NCBI GenBank assembly: GCA_004293905.1
Contig: RDZE01000015.1
Location: 248,001-312,000 of the forward strand
Direction of reading: 5' to 3'
From: Cytophagales bacterium
Lineage (GTDB): Bacteria; Bacteroidota; Bacteroidia; Cytophagales; Microscillaceae
Length of the DNA: 64,000 nt
Shown here: piece by piece, positions 19,725 through 64,000 of the stretch
Layout: each line of letters begins with the position of its first letter
Position numbering within the stretch: the stretch's first letter is position 1
Made by a program: the position numbers and the translations under genes
The notes under the pieces: model-generated
Told to the model about the DNA's origin: nothing
Databases searched by the model: none
The model's input: only the letters and a program-made list of their open reading frames with translations

Positions 19725-20267
19725 TTATACGCGCTTTATGTTAACGGCTAATACGTAGAAAGCTAAGTTTTCATCTATTTCCTTAACATTTACTTCGAGT
19801 TGGTTGTCAGAGGTAAGGGCTACGTGTATGAGTCCAATGCCTGCACCTTTGCTGTCTTCGGTATCGGGTCCTAATGCACGTTGTTGCCTTTTAAATTCGC
19901 GGAGTGCTTCACGGTCAAGAGAGTTGATGGTTTCACACTTCTTGAGTATTTTGGGTACGGCGGTTCGGCTTACAAGGTTGCCTGTCATTACTTTGTAGTG
20001 CTCGGCAGTTTTTACGATGGCTAAAGTTCCTACTTTGTCTTTTCCATCAAATTGGTCGCTTTCTTTGGAGTAATAGAGTACATTTTGGGAAAGCTCCATA
20101 AATATGGCAAATACCTTATTGCCTATGCTCACATTGTCATAGAGCTTGAGTCTTTTACGAATGTTGTTACTGAAGTCAGCCAAAAGCACATTGTTTAGAG
20201 GTCCTTTGTATGAAAAAAGGACTTTTTCTCCATCAGTTTGGTTTTGGTATTCATAATAGTTGAACAT
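19725..20267 (-). CDS. SiaB-like (DUF6272) kinase-fold protein
   Basis: 180 residues, soluble. An FAIFMELSQNVLYYS segment near 70-84 looks like the N-box helix (E-x-x-x-N) of GHKL ATPases, and GAGIGLIHVAL near 145-155 like a G-box. This is the pattern of SiaB-type protein kinases (DUF6272) that phosphorylate a small partner, opposed by a SpoIIE-type phosphatase such as SiaA. Its gene is 6 bases upstream of the XRE regulator. No SiaC (DUF1987) partner lies in the window. The kinase role is inference from family resemblance. Confidence 0.65.
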   Translation of the reverse strand: MFNYYEYQNQTDGEKVLFSYKGPLNNVLLADFSNNIRKRLKLYDNVSIGNKVFAIFMELSQNVLYYSKESDQFDGKDKVGTLAIVKTAEHYKVMTGNLVSRTAVPKILKKCETINSLDREALREFKRQQRALGPDTEDSKGAGIGLIHVALTSDNQLEVNVKEIDENLAFYVLAVNIKRV

Positions 20268-56856: not shown

Positions 56857-57189
56857 TTACATCATCATTTCGCGGTAAGGAGGGAAAAACTCCGTAGCGC
56901 GGTTGATGTCGCGGAATACATCTTCAACGGCTTTAACGCCTTTGTGCGTGATATTGGCTTGGTACATGCCTCCGTTGCCATTAAAATTACCTTGTGCGTG
57001 CATTTGAATAAAATCGTGCATATATAGGTATTTGTAAGCAGATTGGAAATTTTTGTTACTAATGCCTATTTGCATAGCTAATTGTTGAATGTCCATGATA
57101 TAATCAATATCAGACTGGCTTTGACGGTACATTTCCATTAAAATTTGGAAACGATACATTTGATTTTCGTTTACAACGTTCATTTGCAT
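56857..57189 (-). CDS. Winged-helix-like small protein A
   Basis: 110 residues; a second ATG lies at 57183. It is helical for the first 70 residues, with LAMQIGISNKNFQSAYKYLYMHDFI near 36-60 looking like helix-turn-helix recognition helices, then a beta wing (MYQANITHKGVKAVEDVF) and an unusual conserved end FFPPYREM. It is a clear paralogue of the gene at 57601-57936. A DNA-binding role is inferred from the winged-helix pattern only. Confidence 0.65.
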   Translation of the reverse strand: MQMNVVNENQMYRFQILMEMYRQSQSDIDYIMDIQQLAMQIGISNKNFQSAYKYLYMHDFIQMHAQGNFNGNGGMYQANITHKGVKAVEDVFRDINRATEFFPPYREMMM

Positions 57190-57247: not shown

Positions 57248-57604
57248 ATGGATTTACAAAGAGTACATAAATTGCTTCAAAATAAGGCTTATGACTTGTC
57301 TTTAGAGGTGGTTTCCTTGTGTAAAGATATTCATCTGAACTATAAGGAAGACTTTCTAACGGTGCGCCTTCTTGAGCGTGCTACTACTGTGGGCGAGCTT
57401 ATTATAGAGGCTGTAACGCATACAGAGCCACAAAAACGGCGCGCTATTTTGGTAGAAGCACTCAGCACTTTGAACAAGGCTCACTATTGGTTTAATTTGA
57501 CGCATGATAGTGGCTATGTAGGTGCTGACAAGTACAGGGCTTTTCACTTTATTCATAGTGATTTGTCTACTATTTTGCAACAATTGTTAGGAGCTAAAGC
57601 CTAA
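57248..57604 (+). CDS. Four-helix-bundle (23S rRNA IVP/S23-like) protein
   Basis: 118 residues predicted to form four helices (about 1-35, 38-62, 66-100, 103-118). The YDLSLEVVSLCKDI and LVEALSTLNKAHYWFNL segments match the S23/IVP four-helix-bundle family found in 23S rRNA intervening sequences and as free-standing genes. It is the only plus-strand gene of the region and lies between two paralogous minus-strand genes, overlapping the end of the second by 4 bases. No rRNA or reverse transcriptase is nearby, so its role is open. Confidence 0.75.
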   Translation: MDLQRVHKLLQNKAYDLSLEVVSLCKDIHLNYKEDFLTVRLLERATTVGELIIEAVTHTEPQKRRAILVEALSTLNKAHYWFNLTHDSGYVGADKYRAFHFIHSDLSTILQQLLGAKA

Positions 57605-57936
57605 AAAATCATCTCACGGTAAGGAGGGAAATAATAGGTAGGCTCTTGGTCGTTGTTATAAACATCTTCTATGGCTTTGATGCCTTTGTGTGTGATGCTG
57701 GCGTAGTAGTGCGGGTTTCCTTGAAAACTACCGTAGCTACTCATGGGGCGTATTTTGATGAGTTCTTCCATGTGTAGGTATTTCCAAGCGGTCATGAAAG
57801 AGCGCAATCCTATGCCTTCGTTGATGGCTAATGACTGTAGGTCAGTGGCAAAATCTACGTTGGCATCGCTTCGTTTGTAAAGTTCCATTAGGATTTTGAA
57901 ACGAATCATTTTTTTTTCAAAAATTAGATTGACCAT
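57601..57936 (-). CDS. Winged-helix-like small protein B (paralogue of A)
   Basis: 111 residues. It aligns with protein A over its whole length, sharing IRFKILMELY against YRFQILMEMY at the start, AWKYLHM against AYKYLYM in the middle, ITHKGIKAIEDVY and the end YFPPYREM. The loop before the wing is longer and Ser/Gly-rich (PMSSYGSFQGNP). It is the last gene of the six-gene run that starts with the SpoIIE phosphatase at 61153, 45 bases after the SpoIIAA-like gene. Confidence 0.65.
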   Translation of the reverse strand: MVNLIFEKKMIRFKILMELYKRSDANVDFATDLQSLAINEGIGLRSFMTAWKYLHMEELIKIRPMSSYGSFQGNPHYYASITHKGIKAIEDVYNNDQEPTYYFPPYREMIF

Positions 57937-57981: not shown

Positions 57982-58434
57982 TTAGTTCTCGATGGCTTCG
58001 CGAATGGTTTCTGTGTTTTGAATATCCATCTGGTGGCAAAGGCTATCGGGGTATTTATTTTTTATTTCGTTTCTTCCAGCTTCTATGGCTTTTCTGAACC
58101 ATAGGTCTTTGGTGAAGAGTTTTCGGTGAGTACGCAGTCCAAATTTTTCGTATATTTTGGGTTTCCAAACCACGTAGTACCATTCCATAGAGGGTTGGTG
58201 AAATACGCTGATGGCTCTTTTGTCGAAAATGAATTTTTCGCAGGGGTATTGTTTTAGTAATAGCCCTTTTTGGAGTAGCAAATTTTTAAAATCCTCGATG
58301 GGTATATAGGGTTGAATTATTTGGCAAATGAATATTTGGGTACGTTGGCTTACGTAGATTTTACCTACTTTGTCTTCGTATTTGAGCTCAAAGCCATATT
58401 CTTGCATTGCCTTTTCATCATCTGTAGTCATCAT
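57982..58434 (-). CDS. SpoIIAA-like small protein of the phosphatase run
   Basis: 150 residues. The pattern resembles the protein at 56101: IFICQIIQ strand, EKFIFDKRAISVF near 65-77, then WYYVVWKPKIYEKFG near 84-98 and a helical basic end. SpoIIAA-like domains are usually targets or competitors in phosphatase-controlled partner switches. It lies 25 bases downstream of the degenerate SpoIIE-fold gene. No conserved phospho-Ser site is visible. Family assignment is moderate. Confidence 0.5.
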   Translation of the reverse strand: MMTTDDEKAMQEYGFELKYEDKVGKIYVSQRTQIFICQIIQPYIPIEDFKNLLLQKGLLLKQYPCEKFIFDKRAISVFHQPSMEWYYVVWKPKIYEKFGLRTHRKLFTKDLWFRKAIEAGRNEIKNKYPDSLCHQMDIQNTETIREAIEN

Positions 58435-58459: not shown

Positions 58460-60046
58460 TTAGATTCTGAAACTAAGTAAAATGAAATCGTCTAAGTTGT
58501 TTTTTTGTATTTCTGTTAGGTTTTCGAGGTTTTCTTTTTGTTCGTTGAAGGGTAGATGTTTTTGTTTTTCTAATTGTGTTTGTAGTGTTTCTATGAAATT
58601 GTTTTTTTCTACACTTTCTTGGTAAAAGGCGGGCAGAAAGAAGTTTGTTCCTTTTCTGATAGGCATGATGGTTTTATTGATTTTTACTTTATGGCTATTT
58701 TTGCCCAATTTCCAATCTTGCCCACTGATGATTTGGAAGTTATCGGCTCTTTGTACCATTAGGTTGAAGCCAAAACCTGCAAAATAGAGTGTAGTATTGA
58801 GCGAATCGATGACGCAAAGGGCTATCTTTATTTCTTGTTCTTGTGAGATGGCTTCGCTTTTATAAAGTTCTTCTATGCGGAAGTGCAATCTTTCGATGAT
58901 GCGCTCAATGTCGATACTGATTTTATTTTCTAAAATGATATGATTGAGTAAAAAATTGAGTGTTAAGGTTAGTGTTGAACTTTGTTGGCTTGTATTTCCG
59001 CAATTCACCACTGCTAAGTAGTTGAGCCCCATTTTTTCGCCTACCCAAAAGAATGAGTTGTGTTGTTTTTCGGGTTGCCAATAGTATGATTGTGTAATGG
59101 CTTTTTCGAGGTCTTTTTGTGAGCAGAATATATTTTGACGTAGTATATCCCAATCGACAGCGGTATTGTTGTTTTTATATTCTGCAAGTATTTGCTCCAT
59201 CGTTTCTCGTTCTTTTTGGGCAAATTGCTGTTGAGAAATGAGCATGCTCTCAAAGTTTTCTTTTTGTTGTTGTGTAACTTGTCTTTGCTCAGCTATGATA
59301 TGCTGTAATTCTTCTTTTTCTTTGCTCAGCGTTTGGTTTTGGTTTTGTAGGTCAGTATTTTTTTGTTTTATACTACTAATTTCTTGTGTTTGACTGTTTG
59401 CTGTGGCAAGTTGTTGCTTGAGTTGTGATAACTCTTGGGTTTGTGTTTTATATTGCTCTACTATTTTTTTAAGCTCATTGAGTTCTTGTGCTTGACCGTT
59501 TGCGGTAGCAAGTTGCTGTTTGAGTTGGGCTATCTCTTGAGTTTGTGTTTGGTGCTGTGTAGCTATTTTTTTAAGCTCATTGAGTTCTTGTGCTTGACCG
59601 TTTGCGGTAGCAAGTTGCCGTTTGAGTTGGGCTATCTCTTGAGTTTGTGTTTGGTGCTGTGTAGCTATTTTTTTAAGCTCATTGAGTTCTTGTGCTTGAC
59701 CGTTTGCGGTAGCGAGTTGCTGTTTGAGTTGGGCTATCTCTTTTTGTAGTTTAGGATTTGTATTTTGTTCATTGCTATCTTGTTTTGCAACATTTTTTGA
59801 GTTGTTTTTAAGTTGTTCGTTTTCTTTTTCTAAATGCGATACTGTGAGTGTGAACATTTTAGCTTGAGCCACTATTTTTTCTTGCAGTTGTTTGTTTTCT
59901 TCTATTATTTCTATCATTTTTTGATGTATAGGCTCATGCATGCCTTCTATGTAGGCTTGTGAAGGAATTTGTGCAACTCCTAAAAGGGTCAAATCTTGCA
60001 AAAATTCTCTGATGACTTTTAGTATAATGATGTCTTCTTTTTCCAT
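58460..60046 (-). CDS. Coiled-coil protein with degenerate SpoIIE/PP2C domain (pseudophosphatase)
   Basis: 528 residues from the ATG at 60046; the longer frame runs into the upstream gene. About 30-300 is coiled coil, with three near-identical 34-residue repeats (ELNELKKIATQHQTQTQEIA then QLKRQLATANGQAQ). The last 230 residues follow the SpoIIE fold in order, but the metal motifs have changed: SGDFYW to NSFFWVG, ADCTGHGVPGA to VNCGNTSQQSS, TDGYADQ to LPAFYQES and TDDIL to LDDFIL. FAGFGFNLMV still matches FAGARRPLWLF. It should bind but not cleave phosphoprotein partners. This is inference from lost ligands. Confidence 0.65.
   Translation of the reverse strand: MEKEDIIILKVIREFLQDLTLLGVAQIPSQAYIEGMHEPIHQKMIEIIEENKQLQEKIVAQAKMFTLTVSHLEKENEQLKNNSKNVAKQDSNEQNTNPKLQKEIAQLKQQLATANGQAQELNELKKIATQHQTQTQEIAQLKRQLATANGQAQELNELKKIATQHQTQTQEIAQLKQQLATANGQAQELNELKKIVEQYKTQTQELSQLKQQLATANSQTQEISSIKQKNTDLQNQNQTLSKEKEELQHIIAEQRQVTQQQKENFESMLISQQQFAQKERETMEQILAEYKNNNTAVDWDILRQNIFCSQKDLEKAITQSYYWQPEKQHNSFFWVGEKMGLNYLAVVNCGNTSQQSSTLTLTLNFLLNHIILENKISIDIERIIERLHFRIEELYKSEAISQEQEIKIALCVIDSLNTTLYFAGFGFNLMVQRADNFQIISGQDWKLGKNSHKVKINKTIMPIRKGTNFFLPAFYQESVEKNNFIETLQTQLEKQKHLPFNEQKENLENLTEIQKNNLDDFILLSFRI
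59471..59745. repeat. 102-base tandem repeat array in the pseudophosphatase gene
   Basis: Copies start at 59471, 59573 and 59675; the first two are 102 bases with one mismatch, the third is identical except one base until it diverges near 59742. Units are 34 codons, so copy-number changes keep frame. A more diverged unit precedes them (about 59369-59470). Confidence 0.9.
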
Positions 60047-60068: not shown

Positions 60069-60353
60069 TTAGAAACTATCAAAGTCAAAATCGTCAAATG
60101 TGGTTTTATCGTCTATTGGAGCTTTGTTGTCCTTTTTTTGTATTTCATTGATAAGTTCTAATATGTGCTGTGGTGTTTGTTTGTTATTAATTATTTGATG
60201 ATTGGTCGGTTGGTTAGTTTTGAGAATTGGTTGAGGTTTGTATGAGGGTTCGTATTTCTCGATGAGATAGTCTATGAGGAAAATAGCCAAGTTGAGGTCT
60301 TCTGACCATTGCATTTTTTCATCGTTTTGGTTGTATGGTTCAGTATTATTCAT
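60069..60353 (-). CDS. Small acidic-tailed hypothetical protein
   Basis: 94 residues from the ATG at 60353, which overlaps the upstream gene by 8 bases (ATGAATAA); an ATG 30 bases earlier is also in frame. A short helix (WSEDLNLAIFLIDYLIEKY) is followed by a Pro/Gln/Asn-rich linker and a TTFDDFDFDSF tail that looks like a short linear binding motif. It may bridge its two neighbours. No family is recognised. Confidence 0.5.
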   Translation of the reverse strand: MNNTEPYNQNDEKMQWSEDLNLAIFLIDYLIEKYEPSYKPQPILKTNQPTNHQIINNKQTPQHILELINEIQKKDNKAPIDDKTTFDDFDFDSF

Positions 60354-61080
60354 TTGTGCTATTGTTTTGTTTGGCTGTTCCATGAATGTGTTCGATGAGC
60401 ATCTCTATTTTATTGAGCAATTTGGTGATGTAGTAGCTATTGGCACTAATTTCAGACATTATCTTCTCGGTATTGATTTGAAAATCGCTGAATACGTGGT
60501 GTAGTTCATTGACTTTTCCTTTCAGGTATTGCACATCTTGAGCGATGGCTTCTTGGTTGGTGTTATTGGCATTTTGTTGTATAAGTTCTTTTATTTCTTC
60601 CCAATGGTTATTGGTATGATTGGGTTGTTGTATTGCGGTGATATTTTGGTCTATATGGTTGATTTTTTCATAGAGTTGTTGTATTTTTTCATGAGGGTTG
60701 TATTGCTCTATATAAGTAGAGAGGTCTTGTGGGCTTTGGTTTTGGTTGAGTTTGTTTTCGAGGCTATTTATAATTTGGCTAAATTCTGTTATTTTGGTAT
60801 ATATTTTCTCGTTTGTTTCGTTGTTTTTATGGATTTCTTTTTGCAAGTTTTCTTGGTTTTGTTTTAGTGCCTCCCAATTGTTTTCATTTGGTTTTATATG
60901 GTTGCTATTTATCTCATAATCAAGTTTTTGATTATCTTTTTCGAGACCTAAAAATTCATCTATCTTTCTCATTTCTGAAGCTACATCTATGATAGTATTA
61001 TCAACGATGTTGAGGTTATCAGTTTTTTGGTTGATAAAGTCGAAAAATTTCTTTTTATTTTGGTATGAATTATTTTCCAT
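60346..61080 (-). CDS. Asn/Gln-rich coiled-coil protein
   Basis: 244 residues, no signal peptide. Two coiled-coil blocks (about 70-110 and 130-225) separate Asn-rich linkers; the composition is strongly Asn, Gln, Glu and Lys. The last helix (about 205-235) contains ANSYYITKLLNKIEMLIEHI. It is the second gene of the six-gene run and lies 72 bases downstream of the SpoIIE phosphatase gene. A scaffolding role is possible but unproven. Confidence 0.55.
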   Translation of the reverse strand: MENNSYQNKKKFFDFINQKTDNLNIVDNTIIDVASEMRKIDEFLGLEKDNQKLDYEINSNHIKPNENNWEALKQNQENLQKEIHKNNETNEKIYTKITEFSQIINSLENKLNQNQSPQDLSTYIEQYNPHEKIQQLYEKINHIDQNITAIQQPNHTNNHWEEIKELIQQNANNTNQEAIAQDVQYLKGKVNELHHVFSDFQINTEKIMSEISANSYYITKLLNKIEMLIEHIHGTAKQNNSTNE

Positions 61081-61152: not shown

Positions 61153-62475
61153 TTATATTTTTATTCCCATTACTAAGATATCATCTATTTGTTGAGCTCC
61201 ATTTAACCATTCTTCTAAATTATTTTCAATGATTTCTATTTGTTCTTGACAGTTTTTTTGGTGTATGTTGAGCAAAAGTTCTTTCAATCTTGATGACATA
61301 AACCGTCTTCCTCTGAGTCCGCCGAATTGGTCTTGGTATCCATCGGAGTACATATAAATAGTATAATCGCTTTGGTCGGAGAGCATTATGGTTTGGTCTG
61401 TAAAGTTTTTGGCAATTTGCCTTTCTTTGTAGCCGCCTACACCTCTTTTATCAGCTTTGTACTCTATGAGTTCTCCATCTTTGATGAGTATGAGAGGGTT
61501 GTGCGCACCTGCATATTTGATTGTTTTTTGGTTTTTATCAATTATGCAAACTGCTGCGTCCATTCCATCATTGTTGTTTCCATCTGCATTTTGCTTCAAT
61601 ATGATATTTAAGCCTTTATCTAAGTAGTTAAGTAATTTGGCGGGGCTTATTGTTTTTTTAGTTCTTGTAAATTCTCTGATGAGGTTGATGCAGAGCATGC
61701 TCATGAGTGCTCCCGGCACGCCGTGTCCTGTGCAATCAGCGGCAATAATGACAATTCTTTCACCCTCTACCTGAAACCAATAGAAGTCGCCTGATACGAT
61801 GTCTTTGGGTTGGTAAAAAATGAATGCGTCTTTGGTGAAACTTTTGAGTATATTAGTATTAGGAAGCATTGCTTCTTGTATTCTTTGGGCATAGTTGATG
61901 CTTGCCGTGATGTCGGAGTAGGCAAGGTCTATTTCGCCGAAAGCGTCTTCGATGATTTTTTTCTGTTGGCTCAGTTCTATTTCGCTTTTCTCGAGTTCTT
62001 TGATGGTAACTTCGAGGTATTGCTTTTGCATTTCTATTTCATCATTGTTATCTTGAAGTTCTTTAATCATCGCCTCGAGATACTGCTTCTGCATTTCTAT
62101 TTCATCATTATTGTCTAATAGTTTTTTGATGGTGGAGCGTAGTTCTTCTGATTGCAGTTTTATTTTTTTGTTTTTTCTTCTGAGTTGTTGGTTTTTTTGT
62201 TTTACTTGTTCTTTTTGTAATTCATTTTCTTCAATGACTTTTGCCATATATTCACTGGTTTGAATGAACATATTTTTTTGTGCTTCTACATATTCCTTCA
62301 AATAATCATATTCGTTTTCTTTTCTTTGTAGTGTATTTTGTGTGTCTTTTAGCTCTATAGACAAAAGATTGACTTCAAGCTCTTTTTCAGCCAATAATGC
62401 ACGTAGTTTTTCTATTTCCTCCTGTTGGGAGGTAGTAGATGCATTAGAATCTAATATTTTGTCTATTTTTGTCAA
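61153..62475 (-). CDS. Coiled-coil SpoIIE-type serine phosphatase
   Basis: 440 residues, soluble. About 15-195 is a coiled coil with two near-identical MQKQYLEAMIKELQDNNDEIE-type heptad blocks, then a SpoIIE domain (about 200-440). Metal motifs are intact: VSGDFYW, ADCTGHGVPGA, MYSDGYQDQ and IDDILV. The start is a TTG at 62475: an in-frame stop lies just upstream at 62487-62485 and no ATG appears in the first 60 codons. It is the first gene of a six-gene run with a pseudophosphatase and SpoIIAA-like protein. Confidence 0.88.
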   Translation of the reverse strand: MTKIDKILDSNASTTSQQEEIEKLRALLAEKELEVNLLSIELKDTQNTLQRKENEYDYLKEYVEAQKNMFIQTSEYMAKVIEENELQKEQVKQKNQQLRRKNKKIKLQSEELRSTIKKLLDNNDEIEMQKQYLEAMIKELQDNNDEIEMQKQYLEVTIKELEKSEIELSQQKKIIEDAFGEIDLAYSDITASINYAQRIQEAMLPNTNILKSFTKDAFIFYQPKDIVSGDFYWFQVEGERIVIIAADCTGHGVPGALMSMLCINLIREFTRTKKTISPAKLLNYLDKGLNIILKQNADGNNNDGMDAAVCIIDKNQKTIKYAGAHNPLILIKDGELIEYKADKRGVGGYKERQIAKNFTDQTIMLSDQSDYTIYMYSDGYQDQFGGLRGRRFMSSRLKELLLNIHQKNCQEQIEIIENNLEEWLNGAQQIDDILVMGIKI

Positions 62476-62512
62476 TGTTATTATTTATAAAATTATTTTA
62501 CTTTACCGAAAT

Positions 62513-63220
62513 ATGTTATCACATTTAAGTTTATTACATAGCCTTGTTTTATCTTGGCTTGAACGCATAGGAGCTCGGACGTTGGCAGTACCTTCTGAAT
62601 TGGCTTTGATGGAGGCTACAGTCAAAGGTGAGCAAGCTGAGATGCGTAGTTGGGCTTGGGAGCAAGATTTTTTTCACTACATTCGGCTGAGTTACTTTCG
62701 AAGTAAACAGCGCGTAGAGATGCTCAATTTAACTCTTTACCCACGTATTGAGTATGAAATTCCCATGTTTGCGACTGATTTTGTGATAGTGGGCGACCGT
62801 TTAAGGATAGGGTTGATAGATGCTATGCCTTTATTAGATACTGCCGAATATCAGGCGCATTGGGTTACTCCTTTTGCTCCTTTGTATGCAAAAAGCAAGG
62901 CTTTGGCGGTGCAGTATGAGCGAAAATTGGATTGGAGTTTTCGCTATTTGAGCCCTCATGCTTGTATGGCTACCCAATTAGAGTTGAATCAATTGCCTGC
63001 TTTGTTTGAGTTATGGGAGGCTTATTTTTCTTTGTATTGGCAACTTTTGAACAATACGCCTCAACACACTTCGGCAGATTTTCAATCTTTAGTGCAGCAT
63101 TGGCAGCAAGACTATAATACATCGCATTTAGCCGTTGAGCACGATAGAAACCCTTTGATGCATTACTTTGGTACAGAATTGGGTAAGCGTTATCATGAGG
63201 AGTTTCTATTCCGTTTATGA
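62513..63220 (+). CDS. Probable ferredoxin-dependent bilin reductase (HY2 family)
   Basis: 235 residues from the ATG at 62513; the upstream frame lies inside the phosphatase gene. The order of motifs fits HY2-family reductases: IRLSYFRSKQRVEMLNLTLYP (about 57-77), PMFATDFV with Asp89 in the place of the PcyA catalytic Asp105, a LIDAMPL strand near 101-107, and an end HDRNPLMHYFGTELGKRY then LFRL. Asn72 stands where PcyA has His88, as recalled for PebA/PebB/HY2-type enzymes. Length is right (230-260). It would reduce biliverdin to an open-chain bilin. No haem oxygenase or phytochrome is in the window. Confidence 0.65.
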   Translation: MLSHLSLLHSLVLSWLERIGARTLAVPSELALMEATVKGEQAEMRSWAWEQDFFHYIRLSYFRSKQRVEMLNLTLYPRIEYEIPMFATDFVIVGDRLRIGLIDAMPLLDTAEYQAHWVTPFAPLYAKSKALAVQYERKLDWSFRYLSPHACMATQLELNQLPALFELWEAYFSLYWQLLNNTPQHTSADFQSLVQHWQQDYNTSHLAVEHDRNPLMHYFGTELGKRYHEEFLFRL

Positions 63221-63223
63221 TTG

Positions 63224-63658
63224 TCAGACTTCGAGAGCTGGCTTGCTTAGTGCAGTATCTGCATATTTTTCGGGCAGTAGCCATGCTTTTGCCTCAAGTT
63301 CGTCATTGAAGAAGGCAATATCTACTTGGTATTTCTGAATGTATGTAGAAATGATGCGCACAGAGATACGGTTGAAGATATTTTTTGCTACAATTACGGC
63401 TATTTTCTTTACGCCTGACGAAACGGCTTGTATCGCTTTGGGCAACCACTCTTCTACTGTCCAATCTTGGTCTTCATTGATGATGTTTTCACTTTCTTTG
63501 TAGTTGAGTAACCATAGGGCATTTTCGTTTTTTTCGATGAGTTGTAAAAAATCTTGATGCCCTTTGCGATAGTCTATGGTATCTAATAGTCCTAACCATT
63601 CCATAATGGCAATGGAATCGTTGGTTTGCACTTTTAAATAATTGTTTTCTGTTTCCAT
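63224..63658 (-). CDS. SpoIIAA-like small protein (tandem copy 1)
   Basis: 144 residues from the ATG at 63658; the earlier frame is AT-rich and overlaps the neighbour. Features follow the SpoIIAA-like pattern: ALWLLNYKES near 50-59, WTVEEWLPKAI near 68-78, VKKIAVIVAKNIFNRISVRII near 84-104, and a C-terminal IAFFNDELEAKAWLLPE. It aligns along its length with the partial gene at 63688. It is convergent with the bilin reductase gene, 3 bases apart at the ends. Confidence 0.65.
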   Translation of the reverse strand: METENNYLKVQTNDSIAIMEWLGLLDTIDYRKGHQDFLQLIEKNENALWLLNYKESENIINEDQDWTVEEWLPKAIQAVSSGVKKIAVIVAKNIFNRISVRIISTYIQKYQVDIAFFNDELEAKAWLLPEKYADTALSKPALEV

Positions 63659-63687
63659 TGTGAATGTAGTTATATTGGTTGTTGTTT

Positions 63688-64000
63688 TTATTCTGTGATT
63701 TCCATTTCTTCCACTTGGTCTTGTGGTTCGGCGGTGAGCAGCCAATCTATAGCATCACTTTTATTTTCGAAATAAGCAATTTCGGCAGTGCTATTTTGTT
63801 CTATTTGACCGCTGATGAGTCTTACCGCAACTTTATTAAATATATCTTGTGAAAGTATGATGGCTACTTTTTTCAAGTTGTGGTCTATGTGGTTCAGTGC
63901 AACGGGCAACCATTCTTCGGTTGTCCATTTTTGGTCTTTGATATCAATCACCTTTCCTTGTGCATAATTGAGAAGCCAGAGGGTACTTTTATGTTCTTCT
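63688..64000 (-). CDS. SpoIIAA-like small protein (tandem copy 2, cut by window edge)
   Basis: The frame is open from the window end to the stop at 63688 (104 codons visible). It contains TLWLLNYAQG, WTTEEWLPVAL, LKKVAIILSQDIFNKVAVRLI and an end AYFENKSDAIDWLLTAE, matching the neighbour at 63224 block for block. The true start lies outside; the GTG at 63951 is an internal codon. The two genes are a tandem pair 29 bases apart. Confidence 0.65.
   Translation of the reverse strand, partial: EEHKSTLWLLNYAQGKVIDIKDQKWTTEEWLPVALNHIDHNLKKVAIILSQDIFNKVAVRLISGQIEQNSTAEIAYFENKSDAIDWLLTAEPQDQVEEMEITE

Follow-up and report, generated by a model that had tools for sequence, protein, structure and literature searches.

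A catalytically degenerate SpoIIE/PP2C protein paired with a STAS protein in Cytophagales: a possible docking hub of a partner switch

The gene at 58460..60046 (minus strand) of the window, which here means the whole 64,000-nucleotide stretch of Cytophagales DNA that was analysed, encodes a pseudo-SpoIIE protein of 528 aa. Its C-terminal domain keeps the fold of the SpoIIE phosphatases and has lost three of the four metal motifs, and a STAS protein is encoded directly downstream. We propose, at about even chances, that this catalytically dead SpoIIE/PP2C protein acts in a STAS partner switch as a docking hub without enzymatic function. The model was built on the fold, the ligand loss, the selection on the gene, its genomic linkage, a coiled-coil motif and the co-occurrence with light-sensing genes, all of which are documented below.

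Fold, metal motifs and conservation of the degenerate protein

Translation probably begins at the ATG at 60046, where the orthologs also start (M-x-x-E-D), and not at the TTG at 60097. From its N-terminus, the protein consists of an ED-x-x-ILK-x-I helix common to the orthologs (MEKEDIIILKVIREFL), a coiled coil and a degenerate PP2C/SpoIIE domain (about aa 297-528; 58463..59158, minus strand). Tandem Repeats Finder detected 3.5 copies of a 102-bp unit in the coil (59381..59742, minus strand; 92% matches), corresponding to a 34-aa repeat. The repeat-expanded coiled coil reported in a preliminary description of this DNA was thereby confirmed, though the repeat is lineage-specific: it is absent from the orthologs L049, L051, L055 and L057, and L165 carries a different one. 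The length of the coil is free to change, the orthologous proteins measuring 528, 343 or about 610 aa. Pfam and NCBIfam searches of the N-terminal half gave no receiver domain and only coiled-coil background matches; the NCBIfam matches of the coil to SMC and Rad50 were dismissed as such background.

The Pfam SpoIIE model PF07228 did not match the domain. However, an HMM built from 86 domains scoring as active, with the degenerate ones left out, matched the C-terminal 230 or so residues over nearly its full length (5.7e-18). When the C-terminal domain was searched against its own genome, dozens of SpoIIE paralogs were recovered (best 6e-15), and a profile of degenerate domains only found exactly one match among the PDB sequences, namely SiaA-PP2C (1.4e-13). 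The AlphaFold model of the domain, whose input alignment included active relatives too, reached a pLDDT of 89 and a pTM of 0.88. It matched SiaA-PP2C (6k4e) at 1.7e-12 in Foldseek and at a VIA Z of 23.7 (2.6 A over 220 residues), the P. aeruginosa chains of RssB at Z about 20-21 and the E. coli chains at Z about 15. Superposition on SpoIIE (5ucg), which had been suggested earlier as a check, matched the PP2C fold with Z 18.2. The last PP2C strand is present in the model (228-234), and both alignment and model indicate that the core helices and strands are kept across families. The SpoIIE fold assigned to these residues by the preliminary description is thus borne out by the HMM and the SiaA-PP2C match, and by homology and modelling the domain belongs to the SpoIIE/PPM (PP2C) fold superfamily.

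Alignment to the HMM located the four metal motifs on the minus strand. In motif 1 (59045..59059), NSFFW stands for SGDFYW (SGDFY to HNSFF); in motif 2 (58994..59011), VVNCGN stands for AADCTGHG (DCTGHG to NCGNTS), with the Asp changed to Asn; and in motif 3 (58616..58636), LPAFYQE stands for FSDGYxDQ (SDGYxD to PAFYQE). Motif 4 (tDDilv; 58475..58495) is retained as LDDFILL with its Asp-Asp pair. Hence the earlier statement that all four acidic motifs are replaced is wrong for the window copy. The orthologs L055 and L056 have lost motif 4 as well, and in L057 it reads DN (Asp-Asn). In B. subtilis SpoIIE, the metal-coordinating side chains are D628, D746 and D795 (PMC5468089); by motif order, two of these three are missing in the window protein, plus the Asp of motif 1. 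Among 78 SpoIIE matches examined likewise, 64 keep all metal Asp residues, while the others are cut or partial alignments or members of the degenerate family. Judged from alignment and model, the protein most likely keeps the shape of a phosphatase and is catalytically dead.

Two Microscilla genomes (G007 and G008) carry orthologs that are 98.3% identical to each other. Their NG86 dN/dS is 0.059 over the whole protein (dead domain 0.061, coil 0.059), compared with 0.10 for a nearby protein with an active SpoIIE domain. The ratio is rough, as dS is low (0.12) and YN00 gives 0.15, yet it is far from 1. Because these orthologs show a dN/dS of about 0.06, the gene at 58460..60046 is no pseudogene, and by this codon comparison its family is under purifying selection rather than in decay.

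Identity between lineages is only 15-30%. The whole 528-aa protein found no related loci among the genome contigs, and the related loci were gathered with the STAS neighbour as bait. In an order-wide search with the degenerate profile, family members scored 230-308 bits against 122 bits for the best ordinary SpoIIE, a gap that is partly built in, as the members sat in the profile. The family was seen only in the window genome (G000, two copies), G007, G008, G014, G101 and G141, with G158 as a further, diverged case. Six of the seven degenerate domains group together in the SpoIIE tree (support 95/95); the branch of the L165 domain is too long (3.67) for placement by this tree, and it is the STAS neighbour that puts L165 in the clade. 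As to the overall number of SpoIIE domains, 59 were counted in the 3.3 Mb of the window genome and more than 150 first-look candidates in each of the two Microscilla genomes; genome-wide counts rest on draft genomes, some of them incomplete.

The STAS neighbour, its gene surroundings and the linked coil motif

The neighbouring protein P0003 (57982..58434, minus strand; 150 aa) lies directly downstream of the pseudo-SpoIIE gene, 14 bp apart by reading frame. P0003 had no Pfam match, and neither Pfam nor NCBIfam matched it to SiaC. Its AlphaFold model (pLDDT 94.8) matches RsbS (6jhk, Z 11.6), SpoIIAA (Z about 10.5) and other STAS domains, while Foldseek alone returned nothing below 0.001; on the modelled structure, P0003 has the STAS fold of SpoIIAA and RsbS. 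Identity to its orthologs is 67-74%. The family was found in 83 of 291 Cytophagales genomes and has the signature FHQPSMEW, which contains the candidate phosphosite Ser82. Since the first search had used HQPSMEW as a pattern, this position was re-counted on 31 HMM-found loci, where it is Ser in 22, Thr in 9 and another residue in none. Such a conserved Ser/Thr would fit a phospho-acceptor at the usual STAS position.

At more than 12 other loci, a STAS protein of this family directly follows a SpoIIE protein that is about 300 aa long and has every metal Asp. These loci occur in Flammeovirga, Crocinitomicaceae, Salinivirgaceae and other Bacteroidota, and also at a second locus of the window genome (L168). 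Close relatives of P0003 follow a degenerate SpoIIE in Bernardetiaceae (L055), Microscilla (L056), another Cytophagales lineage (L057) and G158 (L165), and the reading-frame spacing is 12-38 bp in the five lineages including the window. In the STAS tree, the five proteins whose partner is dead fall into a single clade (support 100/99), placed among STAS proteins behind active SpoIIE or small coil partners. The pairing is not universal, as the pseudo-SpoIIE of G014 (L051) has no adjacent STAS gene and the second paralog of the window genome (L047) lacks the linked coil motif described below. A pseudophosphatase within a SpoIIE/STAS partner switch, as the preliminary description had it, is well supported by the fold, the ligand loss, the purifying selection and this conserved STAS neighbour with its active-SpoIIE-paired relatives. 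Its closest partner is the STAS protein at 57982 rather than the one at 63224, which is of another STAS type (PF11964).

Upstream of the pseudo-SpoIIE gene lie a 104-aa protein (60069..60383, minus strand), a 244-aa coiled-coil protein (60346..61080, minus strand) and an active-type SpoIIE phosphatase with all metal Asp residues (DDDDD; 61153..62475, minus strand; PF07228 2.1e-20). The position between an active phosphatase and a STAS gene had thus been described with the right neighbours, but the two small genes separate the pseudo-SpoIIE from the phosphatase. Most orthologous loci show no active SpoIIE inside the module. The 104-aa protein ends in an acidic-aromatic tail, FDDFDFDSF, which is conserved in orthologs as FNDFNFDF and FDDFDFDNL; the tail resembles a short interaction peptide.

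Behind the STAS gene stand two small paralogous proteins on the minus strand, B (57601..57936; ending YYFPPYREM; fold unproven) and A (56857..57189), which share the conserved end YYFPxYREM and hold this place in every module seen. A reading of A and B as winged-helix regulators gained no support from a PDB profile search, which was not significant (best 0.015). A four-helix 23S-IVP-like protein (57248..57604, plus strand; PF05635 2.9e-6, below the curated cut-off) lies between them, and in Microscilla its counterpart has the same place on the opposite strand (L049:8538-8894). A second type of SpoIIAA-like STAS protein (63224..63745, minus strand; PF11964 1.4e-6) takes the same place as L212:5156-5569 and is syntenic with the phytochrome block described below; a further SpoIIAA-like STAS reading frame (63688..63999, minus strand) is cut by the window end. 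Neither a cognate STAS kinase nor a protease or sigma-factor gene was seen in the module. Elsewhere in the window, a DUF6272 protein (19725..20267, minus strand; PF19788 2.1e-35), which we take to be SiaB-kinase-like, is a candidate STAS kinase of SiaB type.

At loci without an adjacent SpoIIE, mainly in Cyclobacteriaceae, the STAS protein is accompanied by a small coiled-coil protein. An HMM from six such small coils matched 65 of 146 STAS-adjacent ORFs at 4 bits or more, compared with 9 of 1,808 others. Another matrix was then trained, for which small coils, histidine kinases and active SpoIIE proteins were used but no degenerate protein. Of 77 STAS loci, 69 had the motif within 1.5 kb by this matrix; of 2,109 distant ORFs, 5 had it, and three of these five proved to be STAS partners missed by the automatic assignment. 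Some of the training sequences came from loci that were later counted, the sequences kept apart from training being the degenerate proteins and the window's active SpoIIE alone. Among these, L055 scored 32.4 bits, L057 10.3 and L049 8.5, and the active SpoIIE two genes upstream of the pseudo-SpoIIE scored 24.5 (62233-62301). Free-standing coil proteins of 90 aa and histidine kinases also carry the motif, next to STAS genes where SpoIIE is absent.

In the window protein, the STAS-linked motif is the 23-residue stretch LQEKIVAQAKMFTLTVSHLEKEN (aa 54-76; 59819..59887, minus strand), a single copy of 13.1 bits, a score reached by 2 of 2000 heptad-preserving shuffles, whereas the L165 ortholog has five tandem copies of 12-26 bits. 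Two coils of the window genome without a STAS neighbour reach 15-16 bits with the same matrix, and for this reason the case for the motif rests on the linkage statistics together with L055 and L165 more than on the window copy. Taken alone, the copy in the window protein is weaker than in the active partners and only suggestive. The own paralog at L047:3306-4268 was rejected as a motif carrier, as 241 of 2000 shuffles reach its score. Judging from the linkage, we infer that the motif docks the STAS protein.

Proposed role, competing explanations and the phytochrome block

According to our model, the coiled-coil motif would bind the neighbouring P0003, and the dead PP2C domain would probably recognise the STAS surface around the Ser/Thr phosphosite and hold or shield it instead of dephosphorylating it. 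The phosphate on the STAS protein would be controlled by other enzymes, the likely phosphatase being the active SpoIIE two genes upstream with the same coil motif. The dead protein has retained the features that a STAS partner requires, coil and PP2C surface, and not those of an enzyme. On the simplest reading, the hub would bind the STAS protein free or phosphorylated, and either keep it from, or present it to, this phosphatase and some kinase, for which the DUF6272 protein is a candidate. In the window genome and two others, the switch may take its input from a kinase-less phytochrome. On the evidence, such a STAS-binding hub is favoured over the decoy or sensor suggested earlier.

As the main rival, which we consider unlikely, the dead protein could be an allosteric partner that joins the active SpoIIE (61153-62475) in mixed coiled-coil/PP2C dimers and turns its activity on or off. 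Coiled-coil linkers and dimerisation do control SpoIIE-type phosphatases (PMC12143880), the interface-forming helices are kept in the model of the dead domain, and the dead and the active protein both carry the coil motif. However, the same motif in 90-aa coils and histidine kinases beside STAS genes without SpoIIE argues that the common partner is STAS and not the phosphatase, and at most orthologous loci the module has no active SpoIIE.

It is improbable that the protein acts like RssB, with the dead PP2C domain holding a target inactive or handing it over to a protease; the target would be a sigma factor or one of the small module proteins. E. coli RssB is indeed a dead PPM adaptor, its Pseudomonas counterpart is active and shares an operon with a STAS gene (PMC12143880), and RssB is a structural neighbour of the dead-domain model (Z 21). 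Yet the 58460-60046 protein has no receiver domain, its model contains the last strand that is missing in E. coli RssB, and the module shows neither of the expected genes, protease or sigma factor.

We find it quite improbable that the protein is a structural coiled-coil protein whose PP2C domain is a vestige without a role: the low identity between lineages and the freely varying coil would suit a vestige, but the purifying selection on the dead domain and the preservation of its core helices and strands across families would not. A cryptic enzyme that still dephosphorylates via one metal or other ligands is very improbable, since the Asp-Asp of motif 4 in the window copy is its one supporting feature, against the Asn in motif 2, the loss of motifs 1 and 3, the additional loss of motif 4 in L055 and L056, and the metal-coordinating role of D628, D746 and D795 in SpoIIE (PMC5468089).

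Returning to the docking hub, its possible light input is suggested by the genes that surround the module. A ferredoxin-dependent bilin reductase is encoded at 62513..63220 (plus strand; PF05996 4.6e-31), where the homology begins at about 62513 within an ORF of 62342-63220; the L055 ortholog is 40% identical. Such reductases are known from non-photosynthetic bacteria (PMC10151467). Only 3 of 380 Cytophagales genomes have one (the window genome, G101 and G158), and all three carry the module and a kinase-less phytochrome. The chance that all three fall among the seven module genomes is about 4e-6, a figure uncorrected for shared ancestry or cluster transfer. Past the window end follow a phytochrome that stops after PHY (the next gene), a heme oxygenase, a repeat protein and a second degenerate SpoIIE. 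G101 (L212) has the genes of this block in the same order, with a phytochrome 71% identical to that of the window genome and the bilin reductase near its first module, and in G158 the phytochrome, a STAS gene and two heme oxygenases directly follow the module. All three phytochromes consist of PAS-GAF-PHY only (L047:159-1670, minus strand; L212:3160-4689, plus strand; L165:9765-11360, minus strand). In the window genome and in G101, the phytochrome carries the bacteriophytochrome N-terminal Cys (ETECDRYNFETPG) and lacks a GAF Cys; the G158 protein has a GAF Cys of plant/cyanobacterial type (RSCPDCHLQYM).

The second group of degenerate SpoIIE proteins lies beside the phytochrome block (L047:3306-4268, minus strand; L212:494-1414, plus strand). 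The two copies are 34% identical, and that of the window genome lacks the STAS-linked coil motif. Next to them stand coiled-coil proteins with a repeated TNxLYLSKLERK motif (L047:2385-3293, minus strand; L212:1438-2439, plus strand); a similar motif is found at the end of the 60346-61080 protein of the window.

Beyond the window end, at a distance of a few kb, there is a gas vesicle cluster (GvpN-like, GvpA/J, three GvpF/L and GvpK; L047:4927-9697, plus strand). Of 380 Cytophagales genomes, two have GvpA, the window genome and G158, both of which are module genomes (chance 3e-4). Gas vesicles were rejected as a core module partner, as only these two genomes have GvpA and the Microscilla module goes without them. 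Neither phytochrome nor bilin reductase is present in Microscilla, which has the module, or in G014, and neither was found in G141, where the reductase search applies only if G141 was in the sample drawn; the core module must therefore work without them. Tentatively, and as something we would rather doubt than expect, a kinase-free phytochrome pathway may exist in which the kinase-less phytochrome, served by a heme oxygenase and a bilin reductase of its own, signals through STAS proteins and two types of dead SpoIIE, one of which would bind STAS via the new coil motif, with buoyancy via gas vesicles as one output in two of the three genomes.

If the model is true, it offers a testable docking motif for the large Cytophagales STAS family. 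It also connects a STAS switch with bilin synthesis and a phytochrome that has no kinase, and in two genomes with gas vesicles as well, so that the question of how a kinase-less phytochrome passes on its signal becomes directly testable.

Comparison with known systems

The statement that pseudophosphatases in SpoIIE-type partner switches are not commonly described is fair, but one PPM/SpoIIE-type pseudophosphatase of bacteria is well established, E. coli RssB, whose domain has no phosphatase activity and is kept for protein binding under the control of a helical linker (PMC12143880, PMC5468089). The present system was not reported in the open-access literature searched, which covered SpoIIE pseudophosphatases, degenerate SpoIIE combined with STAS, SpoIIE combined with a bacteriophytochrome, and gas vesicles combined with a phytochrome in Bacteroidetes. 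The kind of working is already known from RssB as a PPM pseudoenzyme, while for the family with its STAS pairing, coil motif and light-sensor linkage no earlier report was found in that literature.

E. coli RssB shares the SpoIIE/PPM-type domain with the window protein (Z about 15 for the E. coli chains). It carries a receiver domain and is missing the last strand, whereas the window protein has a coiled coil, keeps that strand, has lost metal ligands through substitutions and has a STAS gene as its partner. In P. aeruginosa RssB-RssC, the SpoIIE-type protein is also encoded with an RsbV-like STAS protein (PMC12143880), but the phosphatase there is active. By analogy, a PPM domain can turn into an adaptor, as E. 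coli RssB demonstrates, and the enzyme state is seen in P. aeruginosa RssB.

SiaA of the P. aeruginosa SiaA/SiaB/SiaC system has the closest solved PP2C domain (6k4e, Z 23.7), and its target SiaC, whose fold resembles that of anti-sigma antagonists, is phosphorylated on Thr68 (PMC7647112). SiaA is active, however, and P0003 is not matched to SiaC by Pfam or NCBIfam. The Bacillus switches SpoIIE-SpoIIAA and RsbU/RsbX-RsbS likewise combine a PP2C phosphatase with a STAS target, and P0003 matches both RsbS and SpoIIAA, but here the phosphatase is dead and no kinase has been identified in the module.

Further counterparts, found in this analysis, are the STAS-linked active SpoIIE proteins of Flammeovirga, Crocinitomicaceae, Salinivirgaceae and others, which share the downstream STAS family, the coil motif and the SpoIIE domain with the window protein and differ from it in having all metal Asp residues. 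If our reading is correct, the window protein would represent a conserved bacterial family of pseudophosphatases in a STAS switch. Since active counterparts still exist in related Bacteroidota, the step from enzyme to hub could be traced within one STAS clade as one change of partner.
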